From Owenia fusiformis (taxonomy: Eukaryota > Annelida > Polychaeta > Sabellida > Oweniidae): a stretch of DNA of 64,000 bases. The stretch spans positions 19,666,931 to 19,730,930 of the forward strand of contig CAIIXF020000003.1 of the NCBI GenBank assembly GCA_903813345.2, given 5' to 3'. The position numbers were made by a program, and so were the translations under genes. The notes under the pieces were generated by a model. The model saw nothing but the letters and a program-made list of their open reading frames with translations, did no database searches and was not told where the DNA came from. The stretch's first letter is position 1. Every line of letters starts with the position of its first letter. Shown here one piece after another: positions 3,813-27,700 of this stretch.

Positions 3813-4038
3813 CCATAACATGATAGCAACAGTGGACAATGTCATTCACATGATCATATGTCTATTCTCTGTAACCATAGCAGCAATGGACATTGATATT
3901 CATAGTATCATAGATTAAATGCTCACATACCATAGCAACAGTATTGTTGCTTCAAAAGCCATATCAACAGGACAGAGGATAATCATGTGAATATATAGAA
4001 TATTTAGACCCAGCTGCCATAGCAACTGTGGACAATAT

Positions 4039-4169
4039 ACAATTATTGACCTCACCAGAGGTTTACTGTCAAAATTATATCCCGAGACTGTAAACCGAGA
4101 CCGTAGGTCGAGGTTTACAGTCGAGGGATATAATTTTGACAGTAAACCGAATGGAGAGGTCTATAATTG
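4039..4169. repeat. Terminal hairpin of element a
   Basis: The two arms are about 55 bp each. The left reads 'caattattgacctcacc' through 'ttatatcccgagactgtaaa'; the right is its near complement ending 'gaggtctataattg'. The loop is 'cgagaccgtaggtcga'. The ORF's stop codon (TAG, 4161-4163) lies inside the right arm, so the hairpin closes the coding region. Confidence 0.85.
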
Positions 4170-4595
4170 TTTTGTTAGTCCGAAGAATATCTTAGATTTT
4201 CTGATTTGGGTGGTTTTACCTTTTCCTGACTTCTGCAGTTCCACAACAATCGCTTTGAAAACATTTGATGCCTTGAATTCAGACTTGGTAATGTCCATCT
4301 TAAGTGTCTCTCTGATGTATCGTGCCACTCCCCATTTAAGAAGCTGAAATGATTTCAACTTATAAAGTCCACCGTCTTTTTTTCTCTTACCAACGTAAAA
4401 CTTTTTCAAAAAATTATCTACATCTGCCACGGCAGTAAGTTCACTCAATGGAGTCAAAATACTCTCCTGGGCGAAGTCCACTAAAAGCTTTGTACAAAGT
4501 TTTAGATTTTTCTTCGTATTTTGACTGTCTTTACTCTCTAAGAGACTAATAATATCCTCATCTTCAACATTTTTGAAACGGCTAGTGGTGGCCAT
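4161..4595 (-). CDS. Crypton-like tyrosine recombinase N-terminal (core-binding) domain protein, truncated
   Basis: This is a 144-residue protein from the second ATG (aaaATGGCC). An in-frame ATG 24 bases upstream (4619) lies inside the CRE palindrome and is less likely. The sequence 'RFKNVEDEDIISLLESKDS', 'NTKKNL', 'LKKFYVGKRKKDGGLYK', 'LLKWGVARYI' and 'FKAIVVELQKSGKGK' resembles the SAM-like core-binding domain preceding the catalytic domain in Crypton-derived and KIAA1958/DUF3504-type recombinases of animals. The ORF ends at the hairpin just where the catalytic domain should begin, so no Arg/His/Tyr catalytic residues exist. It may be a relic or a DNA-binding-only protein. The family call rests on remembered motif resemblance, not a search. 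Confidence 0.6.
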   Translation of the reverse strand: MATTSRFKNVEDEDIISLLESKDSQNTKKNLKLCTKLLVDFAQESILTPLSELTAVADVDNFLKKFYVGKRKKDGGLYKLKSFQLLKWGVARYIRETLKMDITKSEFKASNVFKAIVVELQKSGKGKTTQIRKSKIFFGLTKQL

Positions 4596-4599
4596 TTTA

Positions 4600-4700
4600 T
4601 CGTCTGACAATGACGTCATTTTAGTGGAATGCTGGGAATATTATTCACCGGCAATGCATTGCGCGGTGTACAGTTAAAATTATTCACCGCTCGTTGACCA
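4600..4700 (-). promoter_or_regulatory. Promoter-like module of element a (CCAAT, ZNF143-like, CRE)
   Basis: Immediately upstream of the ORF are a perfect CRE (tgacgtca), 'ttcccagcattcc' and 'aatgcattgcg' (both resembling the ZNF143/Staf site), two copies of 'ggtgaataat', and 'gattggtcaa' (CCAAT box). The motif identities are established; their use here is inferred. Confidence 0.5.
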
Positions 4701-4918
4701 ATCAAAATCGAGTATTTCAACTGAGGTACTAACAATATAAATCATACACTAGTTTGTACATATAATTTTCAGTTCACCATATTTTAGTGGAAAAGGAGTA
4801 CTCGTTCCCATATAACATGGTACATGTACATTGATTCCTGGGAAACATTAAAATGGGGTATATAATTTAAAGTACCCATGATATAAATTATAAGAAGACA
4901 ATCATATTGTTATTTATT

Positions 4919-5048
4919 ATTATGTCACCACATGAAGTGGTGACATGTGGTGTTGTTATGGATTCCAACTTTTTTGTGGATGCGGTGTTCAGTGGTCGGT
5001 GTTTGTAACAAATGGCAGGTAGTGACATTTTGCATGTTATTGCCTTGT
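4919..5048 (+). repeat. Dispersed 'TTATGTCACCACC...GCCTTGT' repeat, copy 2
   Basis: A short copy with both ends: 'attatgtcaccac' at the left, and 'gtaacaaatggcaggtagtg' running to 'attgccttgt' at the right. Confidence 0.7.
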
Positions 5049-5111
5049 TTATTTATTTTAATGGATAGGAAACCTAGCCACAAGACAGAAATATATGCAT
5101 AAACTAATTTT

Positions 5112-5780
5112 CCCTAAGCGAAGTGATAGGCCAAAATCTAGCAGAATCGAGTAAGGAAAAGTTGATCCTACCAACGATAATAAATTCAGTAGCCTACGAC
5201 TACCATTTTGTGAGTTGTTATCTGTGAAGACTTAGCTTGTATTCTCGAATGCAAATAGCGGCTAACCGGATTAACCTATTGATTTGCATAAAATAGATTG
5301 TCAGTTTGAAGTTGCAATATTGAACGACCCATTTGTCGACTAACAGTGATCATGTGACTTTTCATGCCATTATCACATGATAAAACAAACTTTAAATGCT
5401 CTAGATGTACTTTTTGATGTTATTTACAATTCCGAACACCTCGATAGCCAGTGTTAATTGCTGCTTTAATACCAGATTAAATCATTATTTAGCTCGGCTA
5501 CTGGGTTTGGGGCAAGAGCTGGCAACTAACGGGATGCACGACAGGCGCTATTCATATTTAAATGAGTTTGCCATCAAATTGTAATCAACCCGCAAGCTGG
5601 TAGCCGCTATTTGCATTCGCGAATACAAGCTTAGAGGAGAATTATATAAACACATGAACTGAGTTGTGTAAGATCTTCCACTTACACATGCACAAAATTT
5701 GTGGAACTGAATTTATTTATTTTTGGTAGTCTTTTCCTTACTCGATTCAACAAGATTTTGGCTTATCACTTAGCCTTGGG
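5112..5780. mobile_element. Foldback element with a second MITE inside it
   Basis: The outer inverted repeats are about 80 bp (5112-5190 and 5703-5780), sharing 'gaatcgagtaaggaaaag' and 'aagtgata-gccaaaatct'. An inner element (5231-5634) has its own terminal repeats sharing 'gcgaatgcaaatagcggcta'-type sequence. The interior has no ORF. The arrangement implies insertion of one MITE into another. Confidence 0.75.
5231..5634. mobile_element. Inner MITE with 33-bp terminal inverted repeats
   Basis: The left end 'ttagcttgtattctcgaatg' continues into 'caaatagcggcta'. The right end is its complement ending 'cgaatacaagcttag'. No coding sequence is present. Confidence 0.75.
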
Positions 5781-7041
5781 TGTAAATGTAGGTTTAATAT
5801 GCTGTATTCATAACAAGACAGGATGATAATATTCATCTGATGGTAGATTTAAAGTTTGGTAACCATAGCGATAAATCATAACAATAAGAATAGTATTGTA
5901 GATTTAAAGATCAGAAGTTTTAGCAACAAATTAGTCGGTTATGTTTGTTTGATGCTCAGTAACCATAGGAATCTATGAAAATCATTTTATAACCACAAAT
6001 GAAAATTACCATAAGAGATCAAGCTTACAATGGCTTTTTTGATGCTACGTTCTATTTATAGTATCTCTCTTTGTTGAATGTAGATGTTCAGGAGGACAGA
6101 GATAGAGGTGTGACTTACAATGATGAGAATCTCATATGATTGAAAAAAATTAATATCAATGGCCTAGATGGAATGGTGAGGTTTGATGTTGGATAAAATA
6201 CCATAAATCAAAAACAAATATCATGTTTTTGTTGTTGAATGTATCTTGAATTTATCATGATCAGAGTTTTTAAAAAATTTAGTTAGAAATGGCCAATAAA
6301 TGATTGTTTTTTTTTTATCATCTTTCATATTTATTGTAAGCACAAGTCATTTAGATACAATTACAAGGGGCAAAGCGCTGTAAGCATTAGATGTCCCCTT
6401 ATATAAATAAACAATAAAGTACAATATTCATTTTAACCTGGATGTCACAATAAATGATTGTAATGTTGTGTTTTCTGTTTTCTTCAGATAACTGTATATC
6501 CTCTATCCTCCTATCACACAGGGTTACTCATGTAAATGGACTACTATTTAATCAATTTCATTCATGGATAAAAATCCATTGTTTTTCCTGTATAGCCCAT
6601 TGAATGACAGAAGCATTTTAATTTTAAAATCCTCTAACTCGACGGATATGACAATGGAAAAATAAAAATCATAAACCCACATGTTTGGTTAATTTTAACT
6701 GGATATAAGGAACCAAGAATTGATATTGAGAGGATAGAAAAATAATCAGGTCCATTTAACAGGTTATTGGTCCACTAAAGCTTTTGTAATACATGTATAA
6801 GCCATACTGTATAAATTATTTGTGGATTATATCCAGAAGGTGCACTTTGATTAGTAGGTGAGGCAAATTCTATTGGATTCACAGGTTAAGATGTTATACA
6901 CCCAGAAGTCAGATATTTAATGTGACATTTTGGAGGAGATTTAAATAACTAGATATATATAGTCCATTTTTCATTTTCTTGACTTATGAATATCTAAAAA
7001 CATGATGTTTTTCTTTGCAAATAGTATCAATAGGGTTTATT

Positions 7042-7245
7042 GGAGTGATTTAGCTGGGTTGCCAAAAAATTAACGTTGGGGAAAATTTTTGTATCTATCA
7101 CCATGGTAACATACCAGGTACATGGTGGTATCCCGACGCTAAGTCAATAGTCAACACCATGTTAAGCCAATGCACCCCTCCCTAATTAGCCGATATACTT
7201 TTTTCCCCAAACTAACTTTTTGTCCAACCCAGTTAAATCACTTCA
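7042..7245. mobile_element. 205-bp MITE
   Basis: Terminal inverted repeats of about 43 bp are present. The left 'agtgatttagctgggttg' to 'gttggggaaaa' is mirrored by 'ttttccccaaactaac' to 'cccagttaaatcactt'. Non-coding. Confidence 0.7.
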
Positions 7246-7672
7246 GAAAACTCTTGTTATTATAAATTAACCATAAAACATGGTGTTTTTAACAATTCAT
7301 AGGTTCACTATAGTATGTATAGGGATGACAAATGGACTAATAGTATATCTTTAGTTGACTTTACTACTATATGTATTTGATTCAACATTGAAAACACATG
7401 CATAGTTCAATGTCCACTTATGAATAAAATGTGATTTTATATACTTTCTTGTTCTATATAACTACCACTTTACAAAAGTTGCGATGCTATTATTATTTGT
7501 TTTCGGTCCCTCTGCCTTTTCATTTACTGATTCCAGTTGATATTGGTCATATCCCACATAGTGGGTCCAGAAATTAACAAAAAATGCTTGGATTTCAGGA
7601 AAAAATTGGGTACATATTTTGAAAAACAGCCATTGAAGGAACAGTTTATAAGCCAATTGTCATCTAATTAAG

Positions 7673-8100
7673 GAATAAATAATGATAGGCCATTCAATAT
7701 GGTGAAATTCAGCACGAGTTGGACTGAATGTTGTATAAAGCATGAACTGAAGGTTAGGGCAATTGTTCTGACGTTCTGTCCAATGACTTATGAGTGTAGA
7801 ATTTCACCATATTGAATGGCCTATCATTATTTATTCAGATTTAAACATAGAAAATGAATAGAATGTTCAGAGAATTGGCGATTGAGGTCAATGGAATAAC
7901 CAAACTTGCTGCTATTTTCGCCATTCCAAGGTGTGACTTCATAATACAACACAATACATGCATTTTGATTCCTGGAAGCAGATCGAAAGAGCATAGTCGT
8001 GCATCTATTGAGAAATAGAGAACGTTCTTTATTGGTTTAATGCTGCATTTTGATTGGTTGAGAAATTCAATTAGAGCACGTTAGAATTGATTTTTTATCA
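7673..8100 (-). mobile_element. Hairpin-ended promoter-bearing element (element b)
   Basis: A 38-bp perfect inverted repeat (7673-7710 and 7799-7836; inner sequence 'taggccattcaatatggtga') brackets an 88-base loop. On the minus strand upstream of it are two CCAAT boxes ('aaccaatcaaaatgc', 'aaaccaataaag'), 'ttccaggaatcaaaatgcat', a CRE-like 'tgaagtcac', and an ATG (ATGGCGAAAATAGC) opening a 27-codon frame that stops before the hairpin. The order matches element a, with most of the ORF missing. Boundaries on the CCAAT side are approximate. Confidence 0.5.
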
Positions 8101-8529
8101 TTCTGTGAACTTTTTTTGAAAAACAGAGATTGGCCAATCCATAAGGCCCATGGCTCATGTCTCATTCATTTTCATGGTTGAAAAGCCAATAAAATATAAA
8201 CCTCTGAAGCCTCTGAAATCATGGTTTCAACATGTTTCAACACAACTGACTGTAACTTTGTTTTAGCATGTGCCATACACACTCTGGATGAACAAACTAC
8301 AAAGATTACTGAGATGGTGGACGTGGTTTATGACTATATATTTCATATGATAAGTTTTTGAGCTCATTCTATCAGATTTGATTATGTACTGACTCAACTT
8401 CGAACCTGTGTTGTCAGGTTGTTCACTTTGTTGACTCAATTTGTTTACAATAAACGGGGATTCCCCATCGGTTATTGAGAATACTGAACTGTGATTCGTC
8501 AGCCTGTAAATAAATTATGAGAATAAGCA

Positions 8530-8790
8530 GTGCCCTCTTGACCAATCAGAAACAAGGAAAATCTGGGTTGGATTCTCATTTACATAATCATTCATCAACA
8601 TTACACTAAGGAAATATACATCCTCGGAATACTGCAAAATATCGTATATTTTAACTGAAATGAACTCCATCCTTCATGCAAACTTGTTCATGAATATACA
8701 CTCTACTTAAATTCATCACAGACAGTAAGCTGGATTACGGATATCTACAAGAAAATCAGCTCTAAAGTTGGAACACAAAGGTAAAAATGG
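8530..8790 (+). promoter_or_regulatory. Possible NFAT5 promoter and non-coding first exon
   Basis: A CCAAT box ('gaccaatcag', about 8540) and 'atttacataatc' precede a stretch ending at a plausible donor ('cacaaag|gtaaaa', 8781). This could be a 5'UTR exon splicing to the start-codon exon near 9591. An ATG with good context (aaaATGGCGGC, 8788) opens a 39-codon frame followed by 'aag|gtaaag'. This is position-based inference only. Confidence 0.22.
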
Positions 8791-9180
8791 CGGCATCCTG
8801 TTTATTTATCGCCATGTTGTTTTTATCTTACTCCACTAAAGTAAATCGCTTTATTTGCATTTTCTCAAGTATCAATGTCAATGACAGTTTGATAAGTTGT
8901 AAGGTAAAGATGAGAATTTTTAAAAAACTCTACATTTTACGTGTCATCTTGAAGTTTTGACTGCTATTTTTGATGTTTGAGATGGACATATTTTGACTGC
9001 AAGCGAAAATTGCACGTCACATGTCTAACAATAAAAGCACAAAGGGCAACGTGTGTAAACACAAAAATTCAAGATAAGCACTGGTAGTGGTAACTGTGGT
9101 TGCCTTGCATGGTTTGAACTATACTATATGACCATTTCTTCACATATTTGACTTCCTTGCAACGAAGTTGGTACGAGATA

Positions 9181-9417
9181 CAGTTGGGGACAAAAATAAA
9201 TGACAGGTCGATTTTCGATCACCATTTCCTAATTATGGTGGTCTGAAAGCCCATAATTTCCAATATTGTCTAGATACATATCCCTTAAAATTTGTATATT
9301 TTACATTTTGTATAATCTCATCCACTGATTTATGGCCTCTTGTAAATTCTCTTATTTTTAACATGGGAAATCCTCACTTCAGCAAATCCACCTGTCATTT
9401 ATTTATGTCCCCAACTG
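9181..9417. mobile_element. 237-bp MITE with CAGTTGGGGACA ends and TA target duplication
   Basis: The terminal repeats of about 34 bp start 'cagttggggacaaaaataaa' on the left and are mirrored on the right by 'ttatgtccccaactg'. TA flanks both ends (9179-9180, 9418-9419), as expected for Tc1/mariner/pogo-mobilised elements. Non-coding. Confidence 0.8.
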
Positions 9418-9590
9418 TAGATCTAAGTTATGTCCAATTGTCCATCACCCATCTCGTACAAAGACCGCATCTCTGTCAGAGACTCTGACGATGAATTGAC
9501 ATCCATGAAATAACTCATCTTCGGTCCTCTGTTGGTCTGAGGACACTGAAAACCAAGCGTTTGAAGATGGAAATAACTTATGTTTTTCAG

Positions 9591-9693
9591 GCACATCAAC
9601 TCACCTCATTCTCAAAGATCACCATGAATACAGACTAACTTGCGCTCAAGCCTCAAACATGGATCTATTTGCAACAAAACTCTGAAACAACTC
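9591..9693 (+). promoter_or_regulatory. NFAT5 5' leader with two short upstream ORFs
   Basis: An acceptor 'atgtttttcag|gcac' opens the exon. Before the main ATG are ATG at 9624 (MNTD, stop 9636-9638; context caccATGa) and ATG at 9659 (MDLFATKL, stop 9683-9685). Both end before the main start, so ribosomes would have to scan past or reinitiate. This depends on the exon call being right. Confidence 0.45.
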
Positions 9694-9742
9694 ATGACCA
9701 GCCTTGGTACAATCTCTGAATCCCATTTACCTACTGATAATG
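9694..9742 (+). CDS. NFAT5: NFAT5-like exon with proposed start codon
   Basis: ATG at 9694 reads '[16 protein letters not shown]' plus one base, ending at a strong donor (aatg|gtaagt). The leftover G joins the 'GA' that opens the next exon (12080) to make GGA, so phase fits exactly. I do not recognise the peptide; vertebrate NFAT5 first exons are variable. The start is supported by phase and position only. Confidence 0.55.
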
Positions 9743-12700
9743 GTAAGTTGATTTATAAATATTAAACAATTATGGTAAAGTCGATTTAAATATCAGTACT
9801 GCAATATAAAATTCATGTCTCTTTGGTTGCGAATGTTACAATGTTCATAAATGTGCACCCAGTTGAGCTAGTCATCTGAAACTTCTTTTGGAGTTGCTCC
9901 ATGGAGTCTAGTTTTTATGTGCAAAATAAGAAATCAGTCGTGCAACATTATGTGGGTTCTATGTGGGTACCCTTTGGTTTTATTTTATTAGTTAAAAGAT
10001 AGATTCATCTACACTCTTAAGAGAAACCTCTGAACTTGCTGACCCAGTCAGATCTTTTCATCAACGGAAGAATGGTTTTCTCTCTGTGGCAATTTTCTCT
10101 GTTTTCGTTGACTCAATATTGACCAACATTTAAACACTATTGAAAATTTCAATCAGTGAACTTAGAACCAGGAAGTGAAACCGTAAAAGTAACGAACAAA
10201 TTACATGTATATGAACCTTTGGAAGATTAGATCATGATGAATTTATAAACTTACACATATCTTTTTTTAATTGATGTGATCTTTCATTTTCATTGATACA
10301 AAGTCTCTTTATCATTTTAAATTTGAAAGACGTGGAGTAGAAGACAATCATTAACCAAAGCCCTTGAGAATTGATCATGAAGATGATACTTTGAATTATA
10401 AGAGGCCTTATGACAATGAGTCACCATTTGTTGCTGGTTTGCATCATATAAGGTTCAATTTAACCCTGGATCTGCATCAGTTTGTATACGTTTACTGCCC
10501 TCTGACAACAACCAGTGATTTTAGTTTTGTTGCTGATGATTGAGATTTAAATTATCCATAAGTTATTCTTAAGACCCCTTTCTTGGACTCCCCCCCCCCC
10601 CTCCTAAACTACATCCAGCTGCCCTACTTCACCTGTGTTTGTTTTATTTTCGGTGAAGGTAAAGTACATAGGGGAGAGGGGGGGGATCATACACAGTCTT
10701 GGAGCAAGACTAATCTAAAATATAGCTTTTGAGGTTCTATTTATGGGACTTTGAATATATGATAATATAAATAAAGGTAATAAATAGGTAATTGATCATA
10801 ATTGCTGCTCAATATTAATAACCTAGACTAATATTAAATATGCATCTTAATTCTACCTCCTTATAAATGATATTATTTTACCTGGGGTAATCCATCAGTG
10901 TCTCATCAGAGATTTTACATTTAAATTTTTTTTGCGACATATACATTTCATACTATACATATACTTTAAAGCTATGTCCAGACTGTACGTCATGATTAAT
11001 TTTTTTTATATTTTTTTATGAGTGTAGGCGTGTGTCTTGTTAAATATTAACTTATCAAATGACTGATGGCTAATGATGTTTTCACTTCAATTTGTAAATG
11101 GCAGATACCTAAATCAAAGTAAATAGTAGTGGAATACCATAAAATATCAGTTTTATATTTTGGGTAGGGCTTGCTCTAAAGACTAGACGATTTTATGACC
11201 AGTTTTATGAGGTTGACGTGTGGCACTGTGCCAAGCTCTCTAGTGCTGATACTGTAGTTATGTCTCATAGATTTATATTTTATTTGATGTTATCTGAGAA
11301 GTTCTCATGTCTTATGACTTGTTAAAAATATCTAAACTCTTCACCCTAATAATAAAGATCTACTCATGATGTTGTAGTTCAATATATTATTGTTTTTGGG
11401 ACATTATCTGAGATAGTAGGGAGTTTAATCTTGTAATGTTTTTCACAACCTAAACATGAACGGAAAATATTTAAGCGTATACGTATAGGTTGGCGTTTCG
11501 ATTTTATATGCAAGCTTAAACTCCCTTCGCTATTTAAATGAAAGACAAGAGTGGTCACTTTATCTCATATGTGTACTTTAACATTGTTGATAAATCTATG
11601 AACTTGAGGTCCACTCATTGGGTATCATCTATTCTCTGATATGGTTCTGATATGTATAAACATAGTGTGGTTCTGATTGCTTGAATGTCAAATTACAAAA
11701 TGATTAGTCTTTAATACTGAGAGAGTAGTTAGTTAATAAGCGTACTCTGGTGATTTGTAAAGATTGACACAATATGACTTGATTCTCATCGAGACCCAAC
11801 CTTCCATTTTTGTATGGGTTAATATTGATTTATTTGACATTATATAATATATCTTGATCCCAGATCATCAACTCCAGGGCTATATTAACATTATTGCACA
11901 TACATTTACTTATTGACAAAAACTGGTAACATACAGGTGACCTTTAGGATTTAATAAATCAAGACATTCATGAAATATCACATGTATGTATATACAATTA
12001 ATTGATATTATTAATGATAGGTTGGTTCAACTAGTTAGTAGGAATTAATAGTTATTAATGGGTTGTTTTGCTATTCCAGGAAATTCTGATATCATTATGG
12101 TGGGTGGATTAAATGGGACCACAATGGGTACTCCCATTAATGGGAGTGGGACCAACTCCAGTAGCCCCATGCTGGCGGCAGACCCCATGGCCATCACAGG
12201 AGGGACCAGTGGAGAACGTATACCAGTCAGTTCTATGGAACTTGGCCAAGAAGTCAGAGCTTTTAAGCGACCATTTACCGAACCTTCATTATCTAATATG
12301 TTTCAAAAAGAGACATTTTTGAGTCAGACGTTTTCAAATCCGGAATTACAAGTTCTGGAAGATAATGCATCAATGTCTAGTCATAGTCCAGTATCCAGCC
12401 CTGGACCCTTGTCCCCATCTTATACCCCCCAGACTGTCTCGTCCCCTGAAAATCTTCAGGGATTAGACCAAGACTCCCAACAGTCATTAATACAAAGATC
12501 TGAACACTTACATCTTAATTCGGATAGTATACATGGGGAGCATACATTAAACTTTCCTGGGGAGCATTATTTATCTGGTGACCATGTTTCTATGACGATT
12601 CTCACAAGAGACCCACCAGCTAGCACCACTGACAGTATTATATCGAACAATCAAGGCTTAACAACTGATACTATTTTAAGACAGCCGGATTTACAATTTT

Positions 12701-15700
12701 CACCTGGTGATAGAATTGGATTTATTCAAACTGTCGATTTTTCTGATGATGCCAACATTGAGAGTCCTAAAAAGTTGCGTAAGGGCTCTGGAGATGGAAG
12801 TGACATCTATTCTAGTGCCAGTGGGTCAGCTACGCCTGCCCAAACAAGTGCGTTTGACGCTGGGGCAGCATTATCCCCGGAATATATATTTCAAAAATTT
12901 GGAAAAGAGGATACAGCGACAGATTCTGATGAAATCTTTTCATTTGGTACATCACATGTTAAAACTGATGTGCCAGTAGGGGTGGTTACATATTCACCTG
13001 AATGTTTTAATGATGCAGTGGGAAGTACAATTGTTTCACCAAACTTTGAGATGCCCCCTCCCCCAAATCCTCCTGCAACAAGGTAAGTTGCAAAATAATT
13101 CAAGATTCATCGGATTCAAATGAAATTTTATATGAAATGCCAAAGGGGGTAAAATGATAAGAATATTGGAACAGTTTACATTACCCCACAAATTTCCAAC
13201 TCTGTATATATTATATTTCTAATTATTCTGTCTTTAACAATAATCTACGTTATCAAAAATCTTTTTTATTTTGGAGAATCTAAAAAAGTGTATTATGACT
13301 CATTGGATATAGCTTAATAATAAATGTTAACCTTCTTTCTTGAGTGAATAGTCATTAATAAATAATTTCTTTAAAAAAATATTGGATTCCACTCCCTCAT
13401 GAACATATTCACCATATACAATACCATATTCAAATTTTCATCATTTTTCACCAGAAAATAAAATTGTTAATATTGGTTCAGTCGAAAGTGCATTCATTGC
13501 ACTGAGTTTGACCTAAGCAATCCAATTGGCGACAATAAAAGATTTTTTATCAGATTTGGCCGAACAGTAAAATATTTTATCAGATTTGTCCTTTGAACAA
13601 CCTTTGGAAGTGATACAGATATTCATGTTTTCATTTATTTGGATATTTATGATTATTTGAAATATGTCATCATAGTTGTCTCCCTTTCCTCATATCTTGT
13701 TTTCCATGACTAAGTTGCTAAATGCAAAATTCTATTAGTAATGGAATTTCAATGACAAATATCAATATGACCACAAAAATCAACTAATACTATAGTTTTT
13801 AAAACGATTTATAGACCTTAAACATTTTCTTTTTATTCCTTTAACACAAGTCTGAAAGAAAAATATTTATTTTTAACTGTTGCCATTGTCAATTTGAAAG
13901 GACCAGGATATACATAAAGATTTTTCACTAAAATATTTATAAAAGCATTTTCATTTTAATGTGTAAAAATAACATGAATTGATGAAATAAAACTACTTTT
14001 GAAAAATATCAACATTTAAAATGCCCAACTTCCAGAAAAATAGCATAAATCCAAAGGATTAAAAACAGATTTTGACAGTGTTGATGCGCATCAAATTTGG
14101 ACCTCAACATGTTAAAAAATTAAAGGACTTTTCCTTTTCAAGTTATGAAGCCCCTGAGAATCATATGTGGCAATAAAGGTATTTCAACAGGTATAACATT
14201 AAAAATGCCTTTGGCCTTTTGTCAAACCTGGAATTAATATAAAATCATAGCATAGGAATAATATGACCTTTTAATGACCATTTTGGCCTAATAGAATTTC
14301 CTTTAACTGATTTTCTCCCTTGTCAAATATCCAAGGTTGATCCTATTTATTAAAGATTTGGCCTCAGAATGGGCTTTCAAGAAAATCCATGGTCTCAGAC
14401 TTTATACTTAAATTATATATGCTTACATAGTGCTTTCATTTCAAGGTAGAAGTTGATAAATTTGACCACCTGTGAAGTAAATATATGTACGATTTATCTA
14501 ATATCTACCTGTTGTTATTGGGCTTCTGCCACATGATAGTGAAAAGGTTTCTTATTACATTATATTATACAATAATTATTTTGCAAACATTAAGCTTCAT
14601 ATAGTTGATACAGGCCATAGCCAGCTTTTGCCAAGGGGGTGTTCATTTTTCAAAAAATACCAGAGGGGTTTACATTTGACCCAAAACTACTTGAAAATGC
14701 TCAGAATTATGAAGAACTGCATGATTTTGAAAGAATTTTGGGCCAGTGAGGATTCAGAATTTGAGGAAGGATTTGATGAAGCCATTCATCAATCCGTCCT
14801 TCATTTGACTCCGTACAATTACTTAAATACTTCTTGACAGATTTGGTTCAAATTTAAGCTGATGCCTTAGGAACATAGGACCTGAAGAACTGTGAGCTTT
14901 TCAAGATGGCCACTAAATTCAAATGAGACCTGCCTGCTAGGTTTAACTTAAAGGCAGCCATTCAAGTTTTCCCGAAACCTTGAAATTGTGTGTAGTCTTG
15001 TATACTGTTTCCTTTTTCCATGCAAACTGCTAGATAGATTTATTTTTTTCAAGTCTCTCTGATTTAATACCAGGTGCATTTTTTCATGAAATTTTCGGGC
15101 ATGTACTGATATTGGTCTCGCTTGCTTTTAGGGTTTCTAAACCAATGTCGAAAGCTCGTAAGTCTCTAGTCCAAAGTGAACGAAAACACAAAGAGCCATC
15201 ATTGAGTGTTAATTTCCCGTCAAAATCCCAAGGAATTGAACTGAAGATAACCAGCCAGCCCGAAGAGCAGCACAGGGCCCGGTATATGACAGAGGGCAGT
15301 AGGGGCGCTCTAAAGGATAGGGCACAAGGTCATCCGTCTGTTCAGGTATGTACTCTTATACTTGGAATATACAAAAAAATCAACCCTTGCAGAGCGTGCA
15401 AAGGTTCGATGAGAACGCCGCCACTAGAAAACTGCTTATGTTCCCCATCATCACCTGTGACGGGATATCAAAGTATCCAGTAAATTTGAATTAAGGTTAA
15501 GAATAGGGGTGAGGAATTGCCCCATTCTATGTTATTTGACCTCAGTATCAGAAGTCTGAATATACGTTGCACTTTTTGAAGAGAAGTACTCTCATACAGA
15601 GGTTTCACTGTGTACTATCCTATGTGATGTCATGGTGACAACGTGTCTAAAGTCTAGACTTGCACTTAATTAGCATATCACCTAGTGCCCACACTTTTGA

Positions 15701-18700
15701 TAAAAAATAAATAAAAAGTCAAGTTTATGAAATTATGAATGGCAATTAATTTGCACCTGTTAAAATACACTTAATGCATAGTGTACAATTAACAAATTGC
15801 AAGGACCTACCTCCCAATGATAATTTAGCCAGAGATGGGTGGTTAAAAATTGTTTTCACAACCATGTTAAAGTATGAATTAAATGGAATATCTCAAAACC
15901 TTATTGAATTATCAAATTGAATTTGTAAAAGTCTTTTTAAATTTCAACTTGAAGGTTGTCTTATCTTGTTAATTTCAATTTTTCAGCTGACAGGGTATTC
16001 CAAACCATGTAACATGCAGATATTCGTGGCAAGTGATGTCGGAAAAATCAAGCCCCATGGATTTTACCAAGCGTGTAAAGTGTTTGGGAAAACTACAACT
16101 CCTTGCTCCGAGAGAGAATTTGATAATACAACTGTCATAGAAGTTGAGCTTAACCCTGATACGGAGAATATTGCCAAATTGAGGTTAGTTTATTTTAAGC
16201 TACTCTGTATAATACCACATCTCCAGTCTTCTTGCAAGATTCATTCAATTTTAATGCAGTAGGGACCAGGTTTATATCAATGTTCTCTTAAAATCTCCCC
16301 CTAAACTGATTTTTCCCAATTTAAATGTTGGTCATTTTAGAGATCAATGTTTACTCATTATATAAACATGTACTTTTACTCCCTCTCAAAATGCAATTAA
16401 TTAGAAGACTCATTGATTTTTTGACCCGGTCCCTTATTCTGCAATAGATTGCTTTATAGCTGCCACTGTGGGTCATTGTTTGTGTGTATATAAACTCAAA
16501 TAGACAGAGACATAGATCTACAAATGTTTTTTACTATATAAACATTGATTCAATCAGATATGGACACGTACTTTACTTCAAAAGATTTAACTAAGACTTT
16601 CTAATTTTTTGAAAGATGAAAAACAAGCAGAGGGCAAAATGTCTGTATTTGCCCAGACATTCATTTTATTTACTCAGCTTCTGCCATATTAGGGCATGAC
16701 TATCACTTCATTGTTTTTGACTGAGACTCTTATCAACAAGTCAATAGTGTAAAAACAGATTGAAAAAACTTGATCAAAATAAGTTAAAATAAACAGGAGT
16801 CTGCTATTAAGTATTTGTGTTAAAGTTGAATGTTAGAGTAGTCTGGGTCGAGCATCCTTGCGTGGGACCAACAAAAAGGTGTTAACTTGTTCTCAGGGGA
16901 AATGTATAAACTTTCTGCCTGCTGTTCCCTCGAGCAGTCTTTTTCTTTACTATTATATGGGAAAAGAAGGAAGGGGGATCTCATATAATTAATGATGGTG
17001 ATTGTTACTTTGGAAAGAGAATGGCAGGGGATTACAGGTCTATATATAATGATGATTGCTATTAGCCATCCGGGAGTTGATTAGATAAAAAAAAGTGAAT
17101 ATTAACCAATCTAATTAAATAGAAAGCAAAAAATGAATAAATCAGTATCATTCACATTATAATAAATAAATTGTTCACTGAAAAAAGATCAGAAAAAGAC
17201 AACAGACTATATTGATTCCTTTCCTTATGTGTTGATGGCAAAGGTCTCCTAAATATGAGTTTATCTTGTTGCTGTATTTAAGTTGATAACGGTAAAGAAG
17301 TCCAGGTCAGCGCATCCTGCACTGTTGCAAACCTCGAACATGTTGGCAAGTTTATGACACAATAAATTATCTCCAGGATACAAGAAGTCATTTCGTGAAG
17401 TCACAAGTTTCAAGTAACATATTTTAGAAAGCCATCTACATTTTTTTTCAAGAGATTTTTAATTCATCGAATAGATTTTTGCAATTGATATCCCTAACAC
17501 TCCACAATTTGATGGAAGTTGTTGTTTTGACCGGAGTACTAAATATTTAACATTCTCGTCCTAAAACATGGTGGGATCCACATTCCACAGTCTGTACTAT
17601 CCCTTGCATTAGTACTTTAAAAGGACTCTGCTAAATCTAAATGGTATTGAAATAAAAAAACTAAAAAAACTAACTTGATCTTATTCCACTTATTGAAAGA
17701 GCAATGAAACATTTTGATGAAGAATACATAGTGTCATATTCAGTCCATTTGATTGGCTGCCAATTACTTCTGATTTGGTGCCATATAATTCTTAGTCTTG
17801 CTTCAAGGTCCTGGACCCCCTCCTTTATGTACTTCAACAACAGGCTGTCTTAAAGTAAATGGGGGGGGGGAGTTCAGGGTCTGGGCTATTCTCAAGTGCA
17901 AAAAATACTGTAAAAAGCCATATATTTTTCATACCTATATATGCCTTCTTATCTTCAAACAAAATCTTAATTTTTTTCAAGATTTAAAACACACCTATAA
18001 TGTTATATTTCATTTTGTATGTCTTGTATACTGTCGCTATTTGCCAAACTCTTGACCAAATATTTCATTGACAAAGTAGTTTATAAAGGCACTTATAATC
18101 TCAGATAAGGAGATTATTTACGGGATGTTTCTCTTATGATATGTTTTTGGTTTACAAAGTATTATTGTACATAGAACAAAGTACATCAAACAATCATAAG
18201 GTATTTTGATCATGGATGTTAATATACAAGGTCTGTGTTATTTCAAAACTTGTGTGCACTAGTTAAGATTTTAACAGGACAACTGTCACACCCGGATGGA
18301 TGCCATTAAAATGTGTGCAACATTCCAAATTTTTGTACAGTGAAACCTGTAAAGTGGAACACCTAGAAGTAGAACACCTCTGTTAGTAAAACACTTTTCA
18401 GCGTCCCAACAACAACTGACTTAATGTAAAATGAACTTCTATAGTCTATAAGTGGAACTACTCCCAAGTAGAACACTTTTTATTAGAGGTACCAAAGGTG
18501 TTCCACTTAGACAGGTTTTACCAGTTCAAAATAATCTACTCTTTATATCAAGGTTGATATTATTGATTAAAGATTGCTAGCGTACATCAGTTGTACTCTG
18601 AAATACCTTTACAAAAGACCTGACCTATTTTTTTTATTTCTATTGGATTTTTTTTTTCATTAAAGTACACATCATTTATTTATTTATTCATCATGATGCA

Positions 18701-21700
18701 TTACTGAGAGAATGAACAACAGAAAGAATGAACAACAGAAAGAAAATGTTAAATTTGTGCATAAAGAGAATGATTTATGAAGTAATCGTGAATTAAATCG
18801 GGGTCAAACCTTGAAATTTACAATGAGATCCAAAATATACTTTAAAATACTTTTTTAAGTTCAGGCCAGTCTCTTTTTCATATGATCTTTTTTCTAAAAA
18901 GCCCCTTTTCAATAATAAGGCTTTTTGAAAAAATAGGTATGGTATTGGAAGAGTCTTGGTGTAAGGTTTAATCAAATGATTTTAACCTAAGCCTATTTTT
19001 AAAATAACCAATTCTGGAAAAATATTTTATGGCATCTTCAAGGTTGAATCAAATGCATTTAACCTAAATCTGTTTTTAAACAAGCAGTTATAGAAAAAAA
19101 TAATGTCTGCATCTTTAGCTTATCAAATCATCTCACATTCTGATAGGTTTAATCTCACTATGGCAACCAGGTATCTTACCCTAGCAACCAGCTATCTAAT
19201 CCAACGTGATTTCTCTAATGAAGCTGGCCTTTAAATCCAAGGTCTCCAACAAGAAATATGTTGCTAAAATAAACCTCTAATGAGCCAATAAAATGGTGGC
19301 TCTCATATATAAGACATGTTACGTATAGAGATTCTTGCCTTTCATTTTGATAAAATACTCTACTGTTTTTAGAATCCTAGGATTTATGTTTTACTTCCAA
19401 AGTCTTATCTTCTTTCTTAATTGCAATTTCTGTTTAGTGCCAAAAAGATATAAAGGGAATCGTTACTTAACTGTTTTTGATTGCATTTGTTATTTAAACC
19501 TGAGAATAGTATAAATTAAATTGCATACAATTCATTTTTAAATATAAATGGTCATGTCAAAACTATGAATTGAGTAATTTCGCAGCATTGCAAGATAAAT
19601 TCTCCATTCTCGCTAATTCTCTCTTACCAGCGATAAAGAATATGGGATATATGGGTCTAGATACAAAACTAAACATGTACAATGTATACCTTTTTAAGGC
19701 AGGCCTTCATGCTGATTGCATGCTTGTCGCCATTATCGCCATTATCCAAACCGCTCCTACTTGACAACCTTAAGAATCATTACTACAGAAAACTGCTTTC
19801 CCATTCATACATAAAAAACTGTGACTTAAAATCACATCAAGTAGAACCTATAAAGTGGAACACCTCTGTAAGTAGAACACCTCCATTTGTAGAATAGTTC
19901 AGTTCTGTGATTGTTATGTGGGATGAACCTCCTTTGGTTGAACACCTCTCAAATTGAACATTGTTAATGGAAATCCTAAAGGCATTCCACTTATTCAGGT
20001 TTTACTGTACTGTAGACTACTTATGAACTTATGATATACCAAATTTAAGTTAAGTAAATTCCCTATCCATTGGTATATAATATGACGTATTTTCATTAAG
20101 AAAACCAATATTTATTTTTGAAATACGAGTGTCCCATTTTTTGGACCACCCTGTGCTTGCCTGGAGAATATAATGGCTTCATATTATTATCATAAAAAGC
20201 ATGAACATCTTGAATTGCATGCCTGTCGTCATTATTGTTCCTATTAGTCAGTATACTTCAATCAATTTGCCAGAGTGCTGTTTTGTAATAAAAGCACCTT
20301 AAAGCACATGAAATGCAATGTTTTTGTTTCAAGGGGAATCGATAAAGGAAACAAAGGTTTAAGGGCAGGTTTAATTACAACTGCTTTAACAGGAAGGTTA
20401 GGGCAACCTTGAATTCACCGTCACATGATATAGCTCTTGTTTCTGTTTAATCTGAAACCTATACTCTTGATCTGGATATTTTGAAAATCAAGGTTGGAAA
20501 ATTGTCAATAATATATTGATTCCTGGAACCTTTTTCTAAGTACTTCTTTTGTACAAGTAGAGATCTATATGATAGATGGAAGTGCATAAAAAGAACAATT
20601 ATTTCTTGTTAGCTAGAATACTCTGGTCGATGCTTTTTGTTTTGTTATCTCATTTAAGGTAGATGCTCTTTATCTGATAATCTTTATTTATAGTTTCATT
20701 AATGTTTGATCAAAAAGGTTTGTACTATCAATGTTAAAGAAGAGATTTTTTAATGACAAGGATAGACAGCAAGTCTTGGTCTAGAGCGGGACTTCAAGAA
20801 CAGTCTCGATATCTGAGGAGACATCTTCTTTATTCATGAACAATGGCAAATATACAAACCTCAGTTTTACAGGGAAGAACATGGTTTGAAATACACTACA
20901 CTTGATATAATACAGTTCTTTCTGAAAAAGTAATTTAAAGACCATAGTAAGACTCATCTGTATTTTCTCATTCAACTCTTTTATAATGTAATATTAGAAT
21001 TGTTTACAAACAGTGAGGTCTGCTTTGCTTGAATAGAAATGAGAAATAATATCTGCATATAAGGCACCATGCCATAATCCTATTAGTTAGACATATATCA
21101 ACTTTATTTTCTACTTTAATCTGATAGATGTAGATTAACGTCCAGAAAATGCCACGGTGACATAAGTCCGTCTGCTTAAATTATTTAACTCATTTTCTTT
21201 GAATCAAAGTCCTGATTTTCTGGCTTTTCTATATAATTTACTACATGTACATGCGGATGACATTTCAAAACATGACGAGGGTCGAATATTTCTTACAGTT
21301 TTATCTCCTCGAAAACAGGATGTTTTGTACCTTTTACCTTGTTATTGCATTGTAAAGTATATAAATTAGTAGTACATGAAAAATGAAGGGTTTAACATCA
21401 AACATCATGCTACAACAAGTCCAAAGGTTGTAGCACCTTTAAATTCAGAGCTACCTTTGTGCACTCTATCACTTATTTTTGTTATGTGATATTCACGTAT
21501 GGTATTGCAGTATTGAATTAGTGAATTCAAGATAACAGTGAAATAGCATGTTCTTTTTTCAATGATCCATTCCATAAATATATGTATAAGTAATTTATTT
21601 GCTATTTCTTGGGAACTTAGGAGGATCGGATACAGTCCCTCACACAGATACAAGAAACACCCAAAATTTCACCTGTTTTACATATACCAATTACCTTATT

Positions 21701-24700
21701 TCACACATTCTGGAAGCTGTGTATTACATTGATTAGACTTAGTCTTAAACTCTTCCTGTCATATACATTCTAATTTGAGTGGAAATCACAAATCATATTG
21801 CATCCTCATTTCCCTCTTTAGAGACTTAAATGAACCCAGAAGAGAAATGTCAGAGTTATGTTCAAGTCCGTCTGCATATTGGATATTTATTCTACCCATT
21901 TTCTCTAGAATTTGAATAAACTGTCTGCTTTTCTTGGATTTCTATATAAGTGTTCATTACAAGACTGTTTACTTTATTTCTTGCTGATTTCACGAGGAGT
22001 TCCATTGTGTGTTTTGACCATTATGGAATTATGTACAGTAAAACCTGCCTCAGTAGAACACCTCCTTCAGTACCTCTAAAACGTGTTCTACCTGGGAGGT
22101 GTTCTACTTTGAGAGGTTCATTTGAATTTGAAATTAAGTCAGTTGGTCTTGGGACATTCCACTAGCAAAGGTGTTCCACTTCTACAAGTGTTCCACTTAA
22201 CAGGGTTCCCTGTATATTTTTTCTAGAGAAGACTGATGATATTAACATAAGGAATTATTTATGAAAAGCTCCCTTGATTAACTTCACCTTCTCTATTTCC
22301 AGTTAATTATTTTTTGGCTATCTTTATGCTTCAATGTTTTATGTTCCAAATCTCTCAGGTCTCGTTCAGCAATATCTTCTAGGAAATACCATCATCAAAA
22401 ATGATTCATAATAAGCTATGAGTTCATATCAATATTATATCATAGTCTTGGCTCAGGCCCAAGTAAAGTATGTATCTCTAACAAAAGTACACTGGTTAGT
22501 AGTTCAATCATTTTTCTTCATTTCAATGTACAATGTATTTGTTTAGCTAAGGATATGAAATATGCAGTTGAATTAAAATTGAAATAATGTTTTTGCAAGG
22601 TATGTTGACATTTTCTTGACATTTAGCCTTAACAGAATTTTCAAAATGTTGTCTGTTTAACCCTGCTCCCAAGATTTTTTCTCAACGACCTCTTGAAAGT
22701 ATGTACACATTCATGAATGAGTATCACAATGTGAAAAACCTGGATTAGGAAGACTTTTATGTCTATAGCATATTTATTTTTAAATTGTAAAGGTGGGATC
22801 TACATTCATTCTGCTTGATGTCATTCTAACCAGATCTCATATCATACCATTTATAAAATATTGCAATTCCTGAACATCTGTGGACATTCCTAGGAGAGAT
22901 TGCAGTATATTTACATCAAATGTGTATGTATCACTTACGAGACTTTATCAAAAAGCCAGAGTTGTTTATTTAAGTTTTGCCAATAGATGGAGGGGAGTCT
23001 AATACGATCAAGTGCAAGGATTGGCTCCCAGAATGCAATCTCAATATTTTCAACCAATGAATCTGATCTTAAAGGATGTCATGATTTTCACTTCAAATTT
23101 TGAAATTTATTTCAAAAATTAAAAACACACAAGAAGTGATAAGACATTGGCTCGAATCTTTTGGATTGCTGGTTATAATGACTTTGTTACCAGTTTAATA
23201 TCAGACATTCGAACATGACTGTATTCACGCCTTCTATAAACTGTAAACAAAGTCAACATTTCACCCGGGGTATATTCGCGACCAATACCCCTGGTAATAC
23301 GTGTAATTGTTCGACGTCATAACGGTGGTCGTAGTTATGGCAGACCATCGAAACATTTTGGTGAGTTTTCATGTTCGAATCGTAATATAGACCTCATAGC
23401 AGGGGTAATATCGTCGAATACACCCTTTAGGGCTAGGCACAAAAGCTTTTGAACCCCTCACTCCCTTCGGTCGTTCGGGGTGCAGAAAACGTTTGTGCCT
23501 AGCCCTGCGGAGTGTATTCGACAATATAACCCCTGCTTTTCGGTCTATATTTCTTAAATATGTCACTCTGACATTTTTTTTGAGATTGCATTCTGCTAGC
23601 CAATCCTCTTTGATCAAATGCAAGGTTTAAGAGCCTTCAAAAAATTTTGTAAGGTATGAGATTTGCAGCTATTCTATAAAACCTCAAATGAATCACCATT
23701 GCAAAATGTGATTACTAGAATCAATATTAACATCTTGACTTATAGTCTGAGGTATTCCATACCTGGGGATTCAAAGAATAACAATCAGCATTCAGTATGC
23801 AGTATTTACATGCAATTAGAGTTACTTGTACCTTTAACCCCATTCTGATACTCAACACATCTTTCTGTTTTTCTACAAGAAATATGCTAATGATTTCTCA
23901 TGATGCTTTAACTCCCTCTCTCAAAATATTCTTTTTCTCTGCACACTTAATAATAAATATGCTAATGATTTCTCATATCATGCTTTAACTCCCTCTCTCA
24001 AAATATTCTTTTTCTCTGCACACTTAATATCATTTTTTTCTGAATTGTATTTGTACTTACACATTATCTAACTAGTACTAGACCCGTATTTTTCTCAAGA
24101 GCAAAAAACATGATAATTTACAGATAAATCATTCTGTTGTGAAACTTATGGTGATATTAGAATAGTAAGCATCCGGTAATGAACTCTTATGCCTAGCACT
24201 AGCAGAAAACTGAGTCAAGGCTAACTCAACTATTTATGATGGTTGTATTAATAGAGCATCTTCCACCCACTACACTGGATGTGTGAAGATGATTTAAAGC
24301 TAGTTTTTAACCAATACTATATTTGATTGCTCAGCTTTAACTGAATATATTTGGTTATACCACTCTAAGTCCAATTACATTTGTATAACATGGGTCTATA
24401 ACAACGATATACAGTGGAGAGTGGTATATCATCATCGTATACAACTCCTCCGTATACACTCCAGCGTATACCACTGTAGAAGTGCATTCTGGGAACTAAT
24501 GAATAAAAAAATCATGAAAATTTTCATGATTTCCTAGAATCAAGTGACGTCATAAATGGTTCGAGATCAACATCAGCATTATTGAGCTATGGGATATTTT
24601 TATGGTTTTATTAATTGTTGTTATGATTGTGTTTGAATCAACTGTAATTGAACTTAGAGTGGCATAATAAGATTATATTATGGTTCATTCTGTATATCGT

Positions 24701-27700
24701 GCATTTTATACTCTCGTGAAAATATAATATATTCACTCGTTCGCTACGCTCACTTGTGAATATATCATATACTCACTCGAGTATAAACACAAACCATTAT
24801 ATAACCTCATAGTATACAATGTATTCAGTAAAACATGTATATCTAACATTTCTCTTATCTGAACACCTCTCATCCGAACACTTTTTGGTCTCATTTTTTT
24901 TATTATTCTCTTGTTGACTCCCATGTCAAAAGACTTGAAATGTGAATACTTTCTCATCCAAACAGTAACAGTTGTGGCAATTCTCAGTAATATAATATGT
25001 AGTCATGGGCATAGCACTATTTTTATGAGTAGTACGCCACCACAAGCGTTTTGGGGGGCCTGGAAGGTTCTCTCCCCAGAAAACTTTGAAGTTTGGTTGT
25101 ATTTGGAGTGTATTTGCAACCATCTGGTACGCCTGTGCATATCAGGCATACCAAGCGTACCAGGCAGTACGCCAATGACAGTTTAATATCTAAGGTAATA
25201 TCTAATGGTAAAGAATGTCCCGACTACAGTACCTTACACATGCCAGAAAAGACTTTGTCAAGCTTGTAACTGAGCTTATAAACAAGCTCAAATCTGAGTA
25301 GACTTTGAGGCAGTACTGTGTTTGAAATTCTGATTTAGACCTCCCCAAACATTGAACAGGCATGAATCAGTTTATATTCCAGACCACAGTAATGTATCCT
25401 TTAACTGATCATATTTATTACATCCCATGCTAAGTGTTACTCCTGTAATGCTAAGATTACATCACTTCTCACATATTTGAACTAATACCATCAATCTATT
25501 CCCCCACCTCACAATGGTTTGAGGCCCTGATAATGGGGGGGAAGGGGGAGGCCCTGATAATTGGGGGAAAGGGGAGGCCCTGATAATGGGGGGAAGGGGG
25601 AGGCCCTGATAATGGGGGGAAGGGGGAGGCCCTGATAATTGGGGGAAAGGGGAGGCCCTGATAATGGGGGGAAGGGGGAGGCCCTAATAATGGGGGGAAG
25701 GGGGAGGCCCTAATAATGGAGGGGAAGGGGGCACTGAAGTTAGATAGCTATTTATGATATAGAGATAAATCTCTGTGAATATTTTATATTATGATCCTAT
25801 CCAGACTCAATTGTTTTTTTTCCAGGAACCTTATGACAACTGTTTTCTTTGTACTTTCATTATCAATTGGTCAAGTGAATACTATGAAGTGAAGAATTTA
25901 TCCCTAGAGAACCATTATTCTACAATTCGCATACAAATTCCTTTAAAAGTGTATAGCTGAACCTTCCTATTATTCCCTAGAAATTCTACTGTTAAACATA
26001 TTTAGATTTCCATAAAAGGGCAATATTCAGGGAATTGTTGTGAGAATTGCAGGGATATCTAGGAGAAATCAAGACACTAGTTTTATCTTTGAAGATTGAA
26101 CACCTACAAATCGCCCTTGTTGATTTTCAATATCGTCTTTACTTTAAAGATATATTAAGTGTTAAACATTTCAGAATACATAGAGATCGAGCCTATAATA
26201 GACCTTTTGCTGACGTCATACCAAAATCCCAAAATATTCAACAACTGAATTCCTTTCCTTCATTCTAATTTTAGTGATGGTTTGAATGTTTAGACTAAAA
26301 GGTATTGATGTACTTTGCTATTAGTACATTGTCTAAACATACTGATGTTTCACCAAGGAATGTGATAAGAAGATCTCTTTTAAAAAAGAAAAAGCTCTGG
26401 TTTGAAAGGGAATAAGATATAGAGTATACTGCAAACAGATTTTTTCATCTAGGAATATGATATGTTATGTCAGTAACATACACAAGGGTATTTTACAGGT
26501 ATTTCTTATGATTAACTTGTCCCCACAGGTAGAACTGATGCTGCATAAGACTGAATCGTGTTATAACCATCTACCTTGAATCCTTTAGTAATCTGACTAT
26601 TGCAGAATCAGAATTAAGACAATAAAATAAAACCGTAAATGAATATTCACGTCACATCTTCGCAGAAAATATAGTGATTCATGGACTAGTCAATCAAATA
26701 ATGTTCTCTGATTTAGTGTATATACACTAAAGCCTGTCATAGTAAACACCACACCAAGACACATTTTATACCGACTCCTGTATAAAATCCCGTCTCTGTA
26801 GTGAACACCTACCTACAGTGAACACTTGTTGGTGACTCTATAGGTGTTCACTCTATACAGGTTTCATTGTACGTGTATGTAGATAAGCATTTTCAAAGGG
26901 AAGTAACAGTTATGTGCAAATTTTCCTTGTTGAATGAAATCTCATTTACTGTTAAGATTCTTAAAAACATCCAGGGTGATATTTCTGTTTCAGATAAGGT
27001 TGAAGTTAATCTATTTCCCTGTTTACATGCTCAGTAATAGTATCAATGGCCCTTGAAATGTTTGTTGATGATTTACACCATTAGACCCTTGATGGTTTGA
27101 TAAGAGAAAAACAGGCCTGAAACATGGTCTTGAAAGTTTTTTTATCAGCTTTTTATTTTTTTGTGTATTGATTTCCCCCTCTATGCGATCTCCTCCGTGC
27201 ACTGTATTTTTTTTATTATGTCACCACCACAAGTAGTGATGTATTGTTACAGTCTCCATTTTTTTAGTGGACTTAATTAGGCTCTTGGCATTTGTTCGTT
27301 GGTATCTGTAACAAATAGCAGGTGACATTTTGCATGTCAATGCCTTGTTAATATACCTTTTTGAAATTGAATAAAACAGCAATAGCTTACATTTTATGAT
27401 GATAACGTCACCGATGAGTGTTTAATAGAGGTCATGTAGACCCAGTCTGTTTCAATTATAGCAAAAAGCTCGACTTTTTCACATTGGTTATGTTGCACTT
27501 TTTTCAATATATCTCATAATAGTAGCGTAGGAGTTGAAATGATTCACAGAAAATGTAATACATCTTATAACCATACTCTGGGCTTATTTTACCTCTTTCA
27601 AAGGGTGTCTGATCTGATAGAACAGCCTTTGCACGCTCATTTAGTCTCTTATTTGTAAACTTTCATGAATGGATAATCTTGCAGATTTTCTTGCAAACAT

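Follow-up and report, generated by a model that had tools for sequence, protein, structure and literature searches.

What kind of element keeps a promoter and a terminal hairpin together in copy after copy? The question is raised by four short elements (a, b, d and e) in a 64,000-nucleotide (nt) stretch of the Owenia fusiformis genome (contig CAIIXF020000003.1, positions 19,666,931 to 19,730,930; hereafter the window). The preliminary description of this DNA had proposed one undescribed family in which the promoter and the hairpin, rather than the open reading frame (ORF), are the conserved parts. We found that the elements are insertions of separate dispersed repeat families with sharp common ends, not of one family. 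They are mobile repeats, as proposed, but of several families, two of which are tied by sequence to Crypton tyrosine-recombinase transposons of the same genome. The promoter and hairpin parts are indeed constant and correspond to the two transposon ends, but the ORF of a matches a recombinase N-terminus; as in other non-autonomous elements, the ORF has been lost or trimmed. Overall, the four elements are probably miniature Cryptons with folded ends, moved by the recombinase of full-length relatives.

Each element served as the query in a whole-genome search (498 Mb animal genome; window on contig 3), the best 40 candidates were scored, and element ends were set from flank alignments of the copies. 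The numbers of candidate places are rough first-look counts, ranging from 310 to 1935 per family. We obtained 103 matches from the best 40 of 918 candidates for a, 92 from the best 40 of 806 for b (15 copies fetched), 90 from the best 40 of 1935 for d, and 52 from the best 40 of 310 for e. A copy of a on another contig was 99.6-100% identical over 705 nt, and the a family has therefore moved recently. Among the matches listed, b copies were 81-86% identical to the window copy and appear older. All four elements share one layout, with the promoter and ATG at the 5' end and the hairpin at the 3' end. Inverted repeats were detected at all hairpin places, the outer arm 'tagacctc' reported for a and d is present in the sequence of both, and genome-wide copies confirmed that the insertion boundaries fall at the hairpin and promoter sides. 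The copy alignments placed the elements about where they had been described, except that 23005-23617 resolved into two elements, with d nested inside an outer repeat. A search with this outer repeat gave 288 candidates (best 40 scored), and copies without d aligned straight over the junction. Its inverted ends carry CCCAGAATGC at 23027 and a similar AGCAGAATGC on the opposite strand at ~23588; CCCAGAATGC, earlier read as the promoter site of d, thus belongs to the repeat hosting d, of which d-free copies exist.

At other loci, longer frames begin with a stretch matching the ORF of a, which is 92% identical to locus L099 over amino acids (aa) 1-138 and 52% identical to the gene of L100 over aa 11-138 (128 aa). 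Pfam did not recognise ORF a alone (best match JHD, 0.042, below cut-off), and we assigned its identity because of the matches to L099 and L100. Its first ATG overlaps the cyclic AMP response element (CRE) described below, and the ATG at 4595, 15 nt after the CRE, is the likelier start. L099 is a longer copy of the a family (98% identical both in the first 120 nt at the 5' end and in 115 nt of the hairpin), and its 3' end lies beyond the fetched stretch. L100 contains an apparently complete element (596-3387) with ends like those of a (84% over the 5' 69 nt and 71% over the 3' 188 nt) and a CRE 10 nt before the ATG. Its predicted gene comprises three coding exons and two GT-AG introns, giving a spliced protein of 496 aa in which RGRENL, NHSLR, SGHK and SSYA represent all tyrosine recombinase motif groups. 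The spliced protein matched only recombinase-type families, Phage_integrase (PF00589, 2.5e-8) and DUF3504 (PF12012, 4.8e-7), both above the Pfam cut-off. DUF3504 was traced to Crypton recombinases by Kojima and Jurka 2011 (PMC3212892; this and the other papers are cited from excerpts). Querying the PDB with the sequence of residues 1-341 returned nothing useful (3 matches, E 0.4-0.85). No reverse transcriptase, Gag, RNase H, methyltransferase or DDE transposase was recognised in L100, where the sense frames that reach 80 aa between the element ends correspond to recombinase exons.

The ends of d (86-89%) were found at L126 and L140 around another Crypton gene with all motif groups matched. These two loci are 89% identical over 2807 nt, and no frame in either was recognised as reverse transcriptase, without a domain search on the two. 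An extra N-terminal frame lies before the recombinase exons of both (L126:178-636, 152 aa; L140:235-819, 194 aa). The complete set of motif groups (R, H-x-x-R, H, Y) was present in L100, L120, L121, L122, L126 and L140; L121 has Q for the second H, and its frame shows a stop in the tblastn alignment. These matches indicate that a and d are almost certainly non-autonomous Cryptons. The same identity is likely for b and e: b is assigned because its ends tie to the d group, with which it shares the 5' start ATTCrAACATGA and the ...CTTA end, and e solely because of its architecture and target profile. L125 was considered as an autonomous partner for b. Its recombinase gene lies next to a b-type element of 945 nt that runs the opposite way, and the partnership was unsupported.

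No target duplication was seen at three empty sites, where the joint left one ambiguous base at most. They belong to d (inserted in the outer repeat), a b copy (L115 against L125) and L140 (in a tandem array). Three nt right of the joint, a one-base gap distinguishes the filled site of d from the empty outer-repeat copies. At L140, two empty units match the flanks, once these are joined, over 121 nt. The long Crypton copy at L140:2900-4502 is inserted in the same array that contains the empty site. A search for an empty site of a with the flanks of L002 recovered only the insertion itself. The target of e copies was palindromic, GTATA-N8-TATAy, and the insertion separates its two halves (T in 26/28 at -9, A in 27/28 at -8, T in 26/27 at +2 and A in 26/27 at +3); outer positions were weaker, for example G 14/28 at -12. 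This profile resembles the sites typical of tyrosine recombinases, in which two arms flank a middle of 6-8 nt (PMC3212892).

Short, numerous and mostly non-coding elements with a hairpin near the 3' end might also be ordinary DDE-type miniature inverted-repeat transposable elements or Helitron relatives with a chance hairpin. Helitrons are marked by a 5' TC, a 3' CTRR behind a short hairpin, and Rep/helicase; the DDE-type elements have terminal inverted repeats and duplicate their target site. The elements described here have 5' ends other than TC and 3' ends other than CTRR, the three empty sites show no target duplication, and a tyrosine recombinase gene is present in the long relatives of a and d. 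Both readings were rejected on these grounds, and we regard them as extremely improbable.

At the promoter side, motif counts were limited to sites where the 5' motif was exact and followed by sufficient sequence (40 of 40 a loci, 28 of 30 d loci, 28 of 28 e loci and 12 of 15 b loci), against a background of 332 overlapping segments of 260 nt. The exact CRE TGACGTCA occurred in 38/40 a, 11/12 b, 25/28 d and 25/28 e copies, a total of 99/108 compared to 2/332 background segments; the window copy of d has CGACGTCA at this position. The distance from CRE to ATG was mostly constant, with modal values of 15 nt (a), 9 nt (b), 18 nt (d) and 3 nt (e). The CRE followed by an ATG, as first described, is thus a genuine family feature. 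Among the long loci, the CRE was present in the scanned 5' regions of L099, L100, L119, L120 and L121 and was not found in those of L122 and L126. A third TGACGTCA of the window lies at 26211-26218, outside all four elements. The two remaining sites said to be shared fared less well. CCAAT/ATTGG was found in 39/40 a, 12/12 b and 28/28 e copies but in only 3/28 d copies, and 134/332 background segments also carry it; this signal is weak and is mostly missing from d. The ZNF143-like core CCCAG[AC]AT is a feature of a (38/40) and e (27/28) against a background of 4/332, but was found in 0/12 b and 0/28 d copies. GTGAGT at 23361, a candidate splice donor that would close the short ATG exon of d, was discarded as poor exon evidence, since the same GTGAGTTTTCATGTTCGAAT sits in the 3' region of L126.

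The hairpins showed a further arrangement. Each element ends in a hairpin with arms Y and Y', and directly before Y the sequence of the 5' end, X, recurs in inverted form (X'). As a result, reverse-complementing X'-Y gives nearly the Y'-X junction expected of a circularised element. We examined nine delimited elements, namely a, d and e in the window, b as copy L107, and the elements at L100, L120, L121, L122 and L126, taking as X' the best reverse-complement match to the first 30 nt within each element. The best match ended -1 to +3 nt from the left hairpin arm in 9/9, with match lengths of 8-29 nt. When whole elements were shuffled 1000 times, the X' score was reached by 0 shuffles for e, L120 and L121, 2 for L122, 3 for d, 12 for L126 and 20 for b (7/9 significant). 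The sequences differ by family while complementarity is kept, as in TTATTATATACCC, TTATTACATACC and TTATTATGCACC, each with its own partner. When up to two mismatches were allowed, the X'-Y junction was retained in 37/40 a, 30/30 d, 28/28 e and 14/15 b loci. Independent support for the boundaries came from L119 for L120 (59/60 identical inside, 22/60 outside) and from L140 for L126 (58/60 inside and 20/60 outside; 40/40 and 12/40 at the 3' end). The 3' ends read ...CTTA, ...TATA or ...CATA. A core AAAACAA stands at the X'-Y meeting point in L120, L121, L122, a and L100, which are otherwise different families. From these observations, we are confident that the X'-Y layout is real.

With the first bases appended to the 3' part, to mimic a circle, the fold was one continuous hairpin in 9/9, pairing X with X' and Y with Y' (z from -2.2 for a to -17.0 for L121, against 50 shuffles of X). 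With the ends as set here, the internal junction spacer was 2-5 nt shorter than the terminal one in 9/9, and the fold therefore has unpaired bases at the crossover region.

We then surveyed 19 of the 25 recombinase matches in the genome (6 were not fetched). A downstream hairpin with an adjacent X' was found in 6/19: L100 (weak X'), L120, L121, L122, L126 and L140. The window score was reached by 0, 1, 2, 2 and 1 of 200 random same-locus windows for L120, L121, L122, L126 and L140, respectively, and by 135/200 for L100. L140 was the sole new locus at this step and is a close relative of L126. L099 gave no result, its hairpin being cut by the fetched end. The other 12/19 loci showed no hairpin with adjacent X'. 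L141 and L142 among them are truncated relatives of L126, and nine (L101, L119, L123, L124, L125, L127, L128, L137 and L138) miss the full motif set as scored by strict patterns, with which failing to match is not the same as lacking a motif. L101, L119 and L127 have other downstream palindromes without a significant X'.

The following mechanism would account for these features. A tyrosine recombinase supplied in trans by full-length Crypton relatives would move the miniature copies. During movement one strand, as a cruciform, on the lagging strand or as an excised single strand, would fold by pairing of X to X' and of Y to Y', and the folded strand would provide a double-stranded recombinase site with extra unpaired bases on one side. 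The miniature copies would keep the promoter, ATG and hairpin because the recombinase requires both ends, and these parts belong to them. This folding role for X'-Y is a tentative proposal, less probable than the Crypton identity itself. By analogy, the integron attC site, on which a tyrosine recombinase uses one folded strand (PMC2727003), would fit the fold described here, including unpaired bases on one side; attC differs in belonging to bacterial gene cassettes with the integrase encoded elsewhere.

Several points weigh against this account. In a and L100, X' spans no more than 8 nt and its score is not significant (reached by 400 and 876 of 1000 shuffles), so that these two count through position alone, and the scores of b and L126 are moderate. 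A rough positional estimate for five distinct families was 6e-11, a flattering figure since it was the X/X' match that first drew attention to the 5' starts of L120, L121 and L122. The boundary of L121 is weakly backed (12/15 inside, 9/30 outside), and L122 is without an independent boundary. L139 has all four recombinase motif groups, yet no hairpin or inverted match was found there, an unexplained exception. Our searches found no autonomous partner for e and none of its own for b. The exons of L100 are gene models, the circles, the single-stranded intermediates and transcription are putative, and the terminal palindrome could have other roles.

In one such role, X' and the hairpin would serve in recombinase binding or in regulation, as accessory arm sites or as a decoy that limits recombination, with no strand folding. 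Tyrosine recombinase systems often have accessory arm sites, and here the terminal arm sequences are repeated side by side. However, most of the hairpin (~130-170 nt in a, b, d, L100, L120 and L126) is complementary, which is far more than a pair of sites would need; we judge this explanation somewhat unlikely. A second concerns amplification. In a circle, the internal and terminal junctions would form inverted sites, and recombination between them during replication would produce a double rolling circle, for which Flp on the yeast 2-micron plasmid is the model. The two junction copies are inverted as this model requires, and it would account for hundreds of copies from a cut-and-join recombinase. 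Strand exchange normally requires equal spacers, however, and the internal spacer is the shorter one in all nine elements; nor is an origin of replication known. We judge amplification of this kind improbable.

Compared with animal Cryptons of the CryptonA/CryptonI type (PMC3212892), the elements described here agree in being recombinase-only DNA transposons with a DUF3504-type recombinase and abundant non-autonomous derivatives. They differ in having a terminal hairpin and an inverted internal 5' copy, whereas the excerpts of that paper report no terminal repeats for animal Cryptons, neither direct nor inverted in the best-studied family. An extrachromosomal circle has been proposed for Cryptons (PMC3212892). 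The vertebrate repeats Eulor5/Eulor6 were likened to non-autonomous salmon Cryptons, especially in their termini (PMC5753468). In the open-access literature (excerpts of PMC3212892, PMC4157794, PMC5753468 and PMC6681497; subscription reviews and Repbase aside), we did not find the X'-Y layout described for Cryptons.

A parallel layout is found in DIRS1-like retrotransposons, where inverted internal copies of both ends meet at an internal 'circular junction' near the 3' end (PMC3266345). The order X ... X'-Y ... Y' equals the DIRS1 order of left terminus, left internal complementary region (ICR), right ICR and right terminus (PMC3266345), and the promoter is located at the 5' end; X'-Y might accordingly serve reverse transcription, as the template that closes a circle from RNA or cDNA. 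L100 differs from DIRS1 in that none of the Gag, reverse transcriptase, RNase H and methyltransferase domains was recognised in it and its element ends are not long repeats of each other. Because L100 has no reverse transcriptase frame, only recombinase exons, and keeps its two predicted introns, an RNA-templated role for X'-Y is very unlikely. A different relationship to DIRS1 may be considered: Cryptons without reverse transcriptase would carry an inverted internal circle junction beside a hairpin, the strand of which folds to a site, and the DIRS1 ICR would be inherited from such a Crypton, serving the recombinase rather than having arisen for reverse transcription. We put this forward as a speculative and rather doubtful idea.

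By our own reading, the Ngaro/PAT/VIPER elements, with split direct repeats in the order A1-B1-A2-B2 (PMC6681497, PMC4157794), also contain an internal circle-junction copy; theirs is in direct orientation, whereas the copy here is inverted and followed by a hairpin. The window itself contains a young-looking retroelement of the Ngaro/PAT type at 42044-46560 (minus strand), with the order A1 ... B1-A2 ... B2 and with pairs of 137 nt (99%) and 118 nt (100%); its junction copy is the direct-orientation counterpart of the Crypton one. A frame at 42663-43415 gave weak recombinase-type Pfam matches, below cut-off, and those at ~43634-45499 presumably encode reverse transcriptase.

The coordinates of the features are collected below. 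Elsewhere in the window, inverted-repeat-flanked stretches at 5231-5634, 9179-9419 and 6982-7304 may be unrelated miniature transposons, and a minisatellite with a 67-nt unit (25.7 copies) at 62278-63998 reaches the window edge. Host-like exons lie at 12058-13086, 15966-16262 and 38430-38735; Pfam gave no match for the first two. We take 15966-16262 to resemble an NFAT5/Rel-type domain and 38430-38735 a serine protease.

Table 1. Coordinates of the elements and of their parts in the window.
Feature	Position	Strand	Remarks
Element a	4036-4737	minus	702 nt; 5' end 4737, 3' end 4036; almost certainly a non-autonomous Crypton; edges common to copies among L001-L040
Hairpin of a	4039-4170	minus	outer arms 4170-4133 and 4075-4039
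ORF a	4161-4619	minus	152 aa from first ATG; matches N-terminal part of Crypton recombinase gene
X' of a	4172-4179	minus	8-nt match, 1 nt from hairpin arm
CRE TGACGTCA of a	4611-4618		in 38/40 copies
Element b	7669-8087	minus	419 nt; likely Crypton-type, non-autonomous; older copy, 5' end worn
Hairpin of b	7673-7836	minus	X' at ~7839-7848 read by eye in window; measured on L107
Outer repeat	23017-23612		~250 nt without d; similar inverted ends; host of d, no part of d
Element d	23207-23556	plus	350 nt; almost certainly a non-autonomous Crypton; edges from copies; ends as in L126 and L140
X' of d	23369-23380	plus	inverted copy of 5' end 23207-23218; 12/12 nt
Hairpin of d	23384-23551	plus	inverted-repeat search and fold
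Element e	24355-24811	plus	457 nt; likely Crypton-type, non-autonomous; edges from copies; palindromic target profile
CRE TGACGTCA of e	24545-24552		in 25/28 copies
X' of e	24639-24667	plus	inverted copy of 5' end 24355-24383; 29-nt match, 3 mismatches
Hairpin of e	24667-24810	plus	outer arms 24667-24685 and 24792-24810

We know of no account of how animal Cryptons join DNA and multiply. The conserved end structure of these Cryptons offers a testable substrate, and what is new is that transposons in which no reverse transcriptase was recognised contain a DIRS1-like inverted circle-junction copy.

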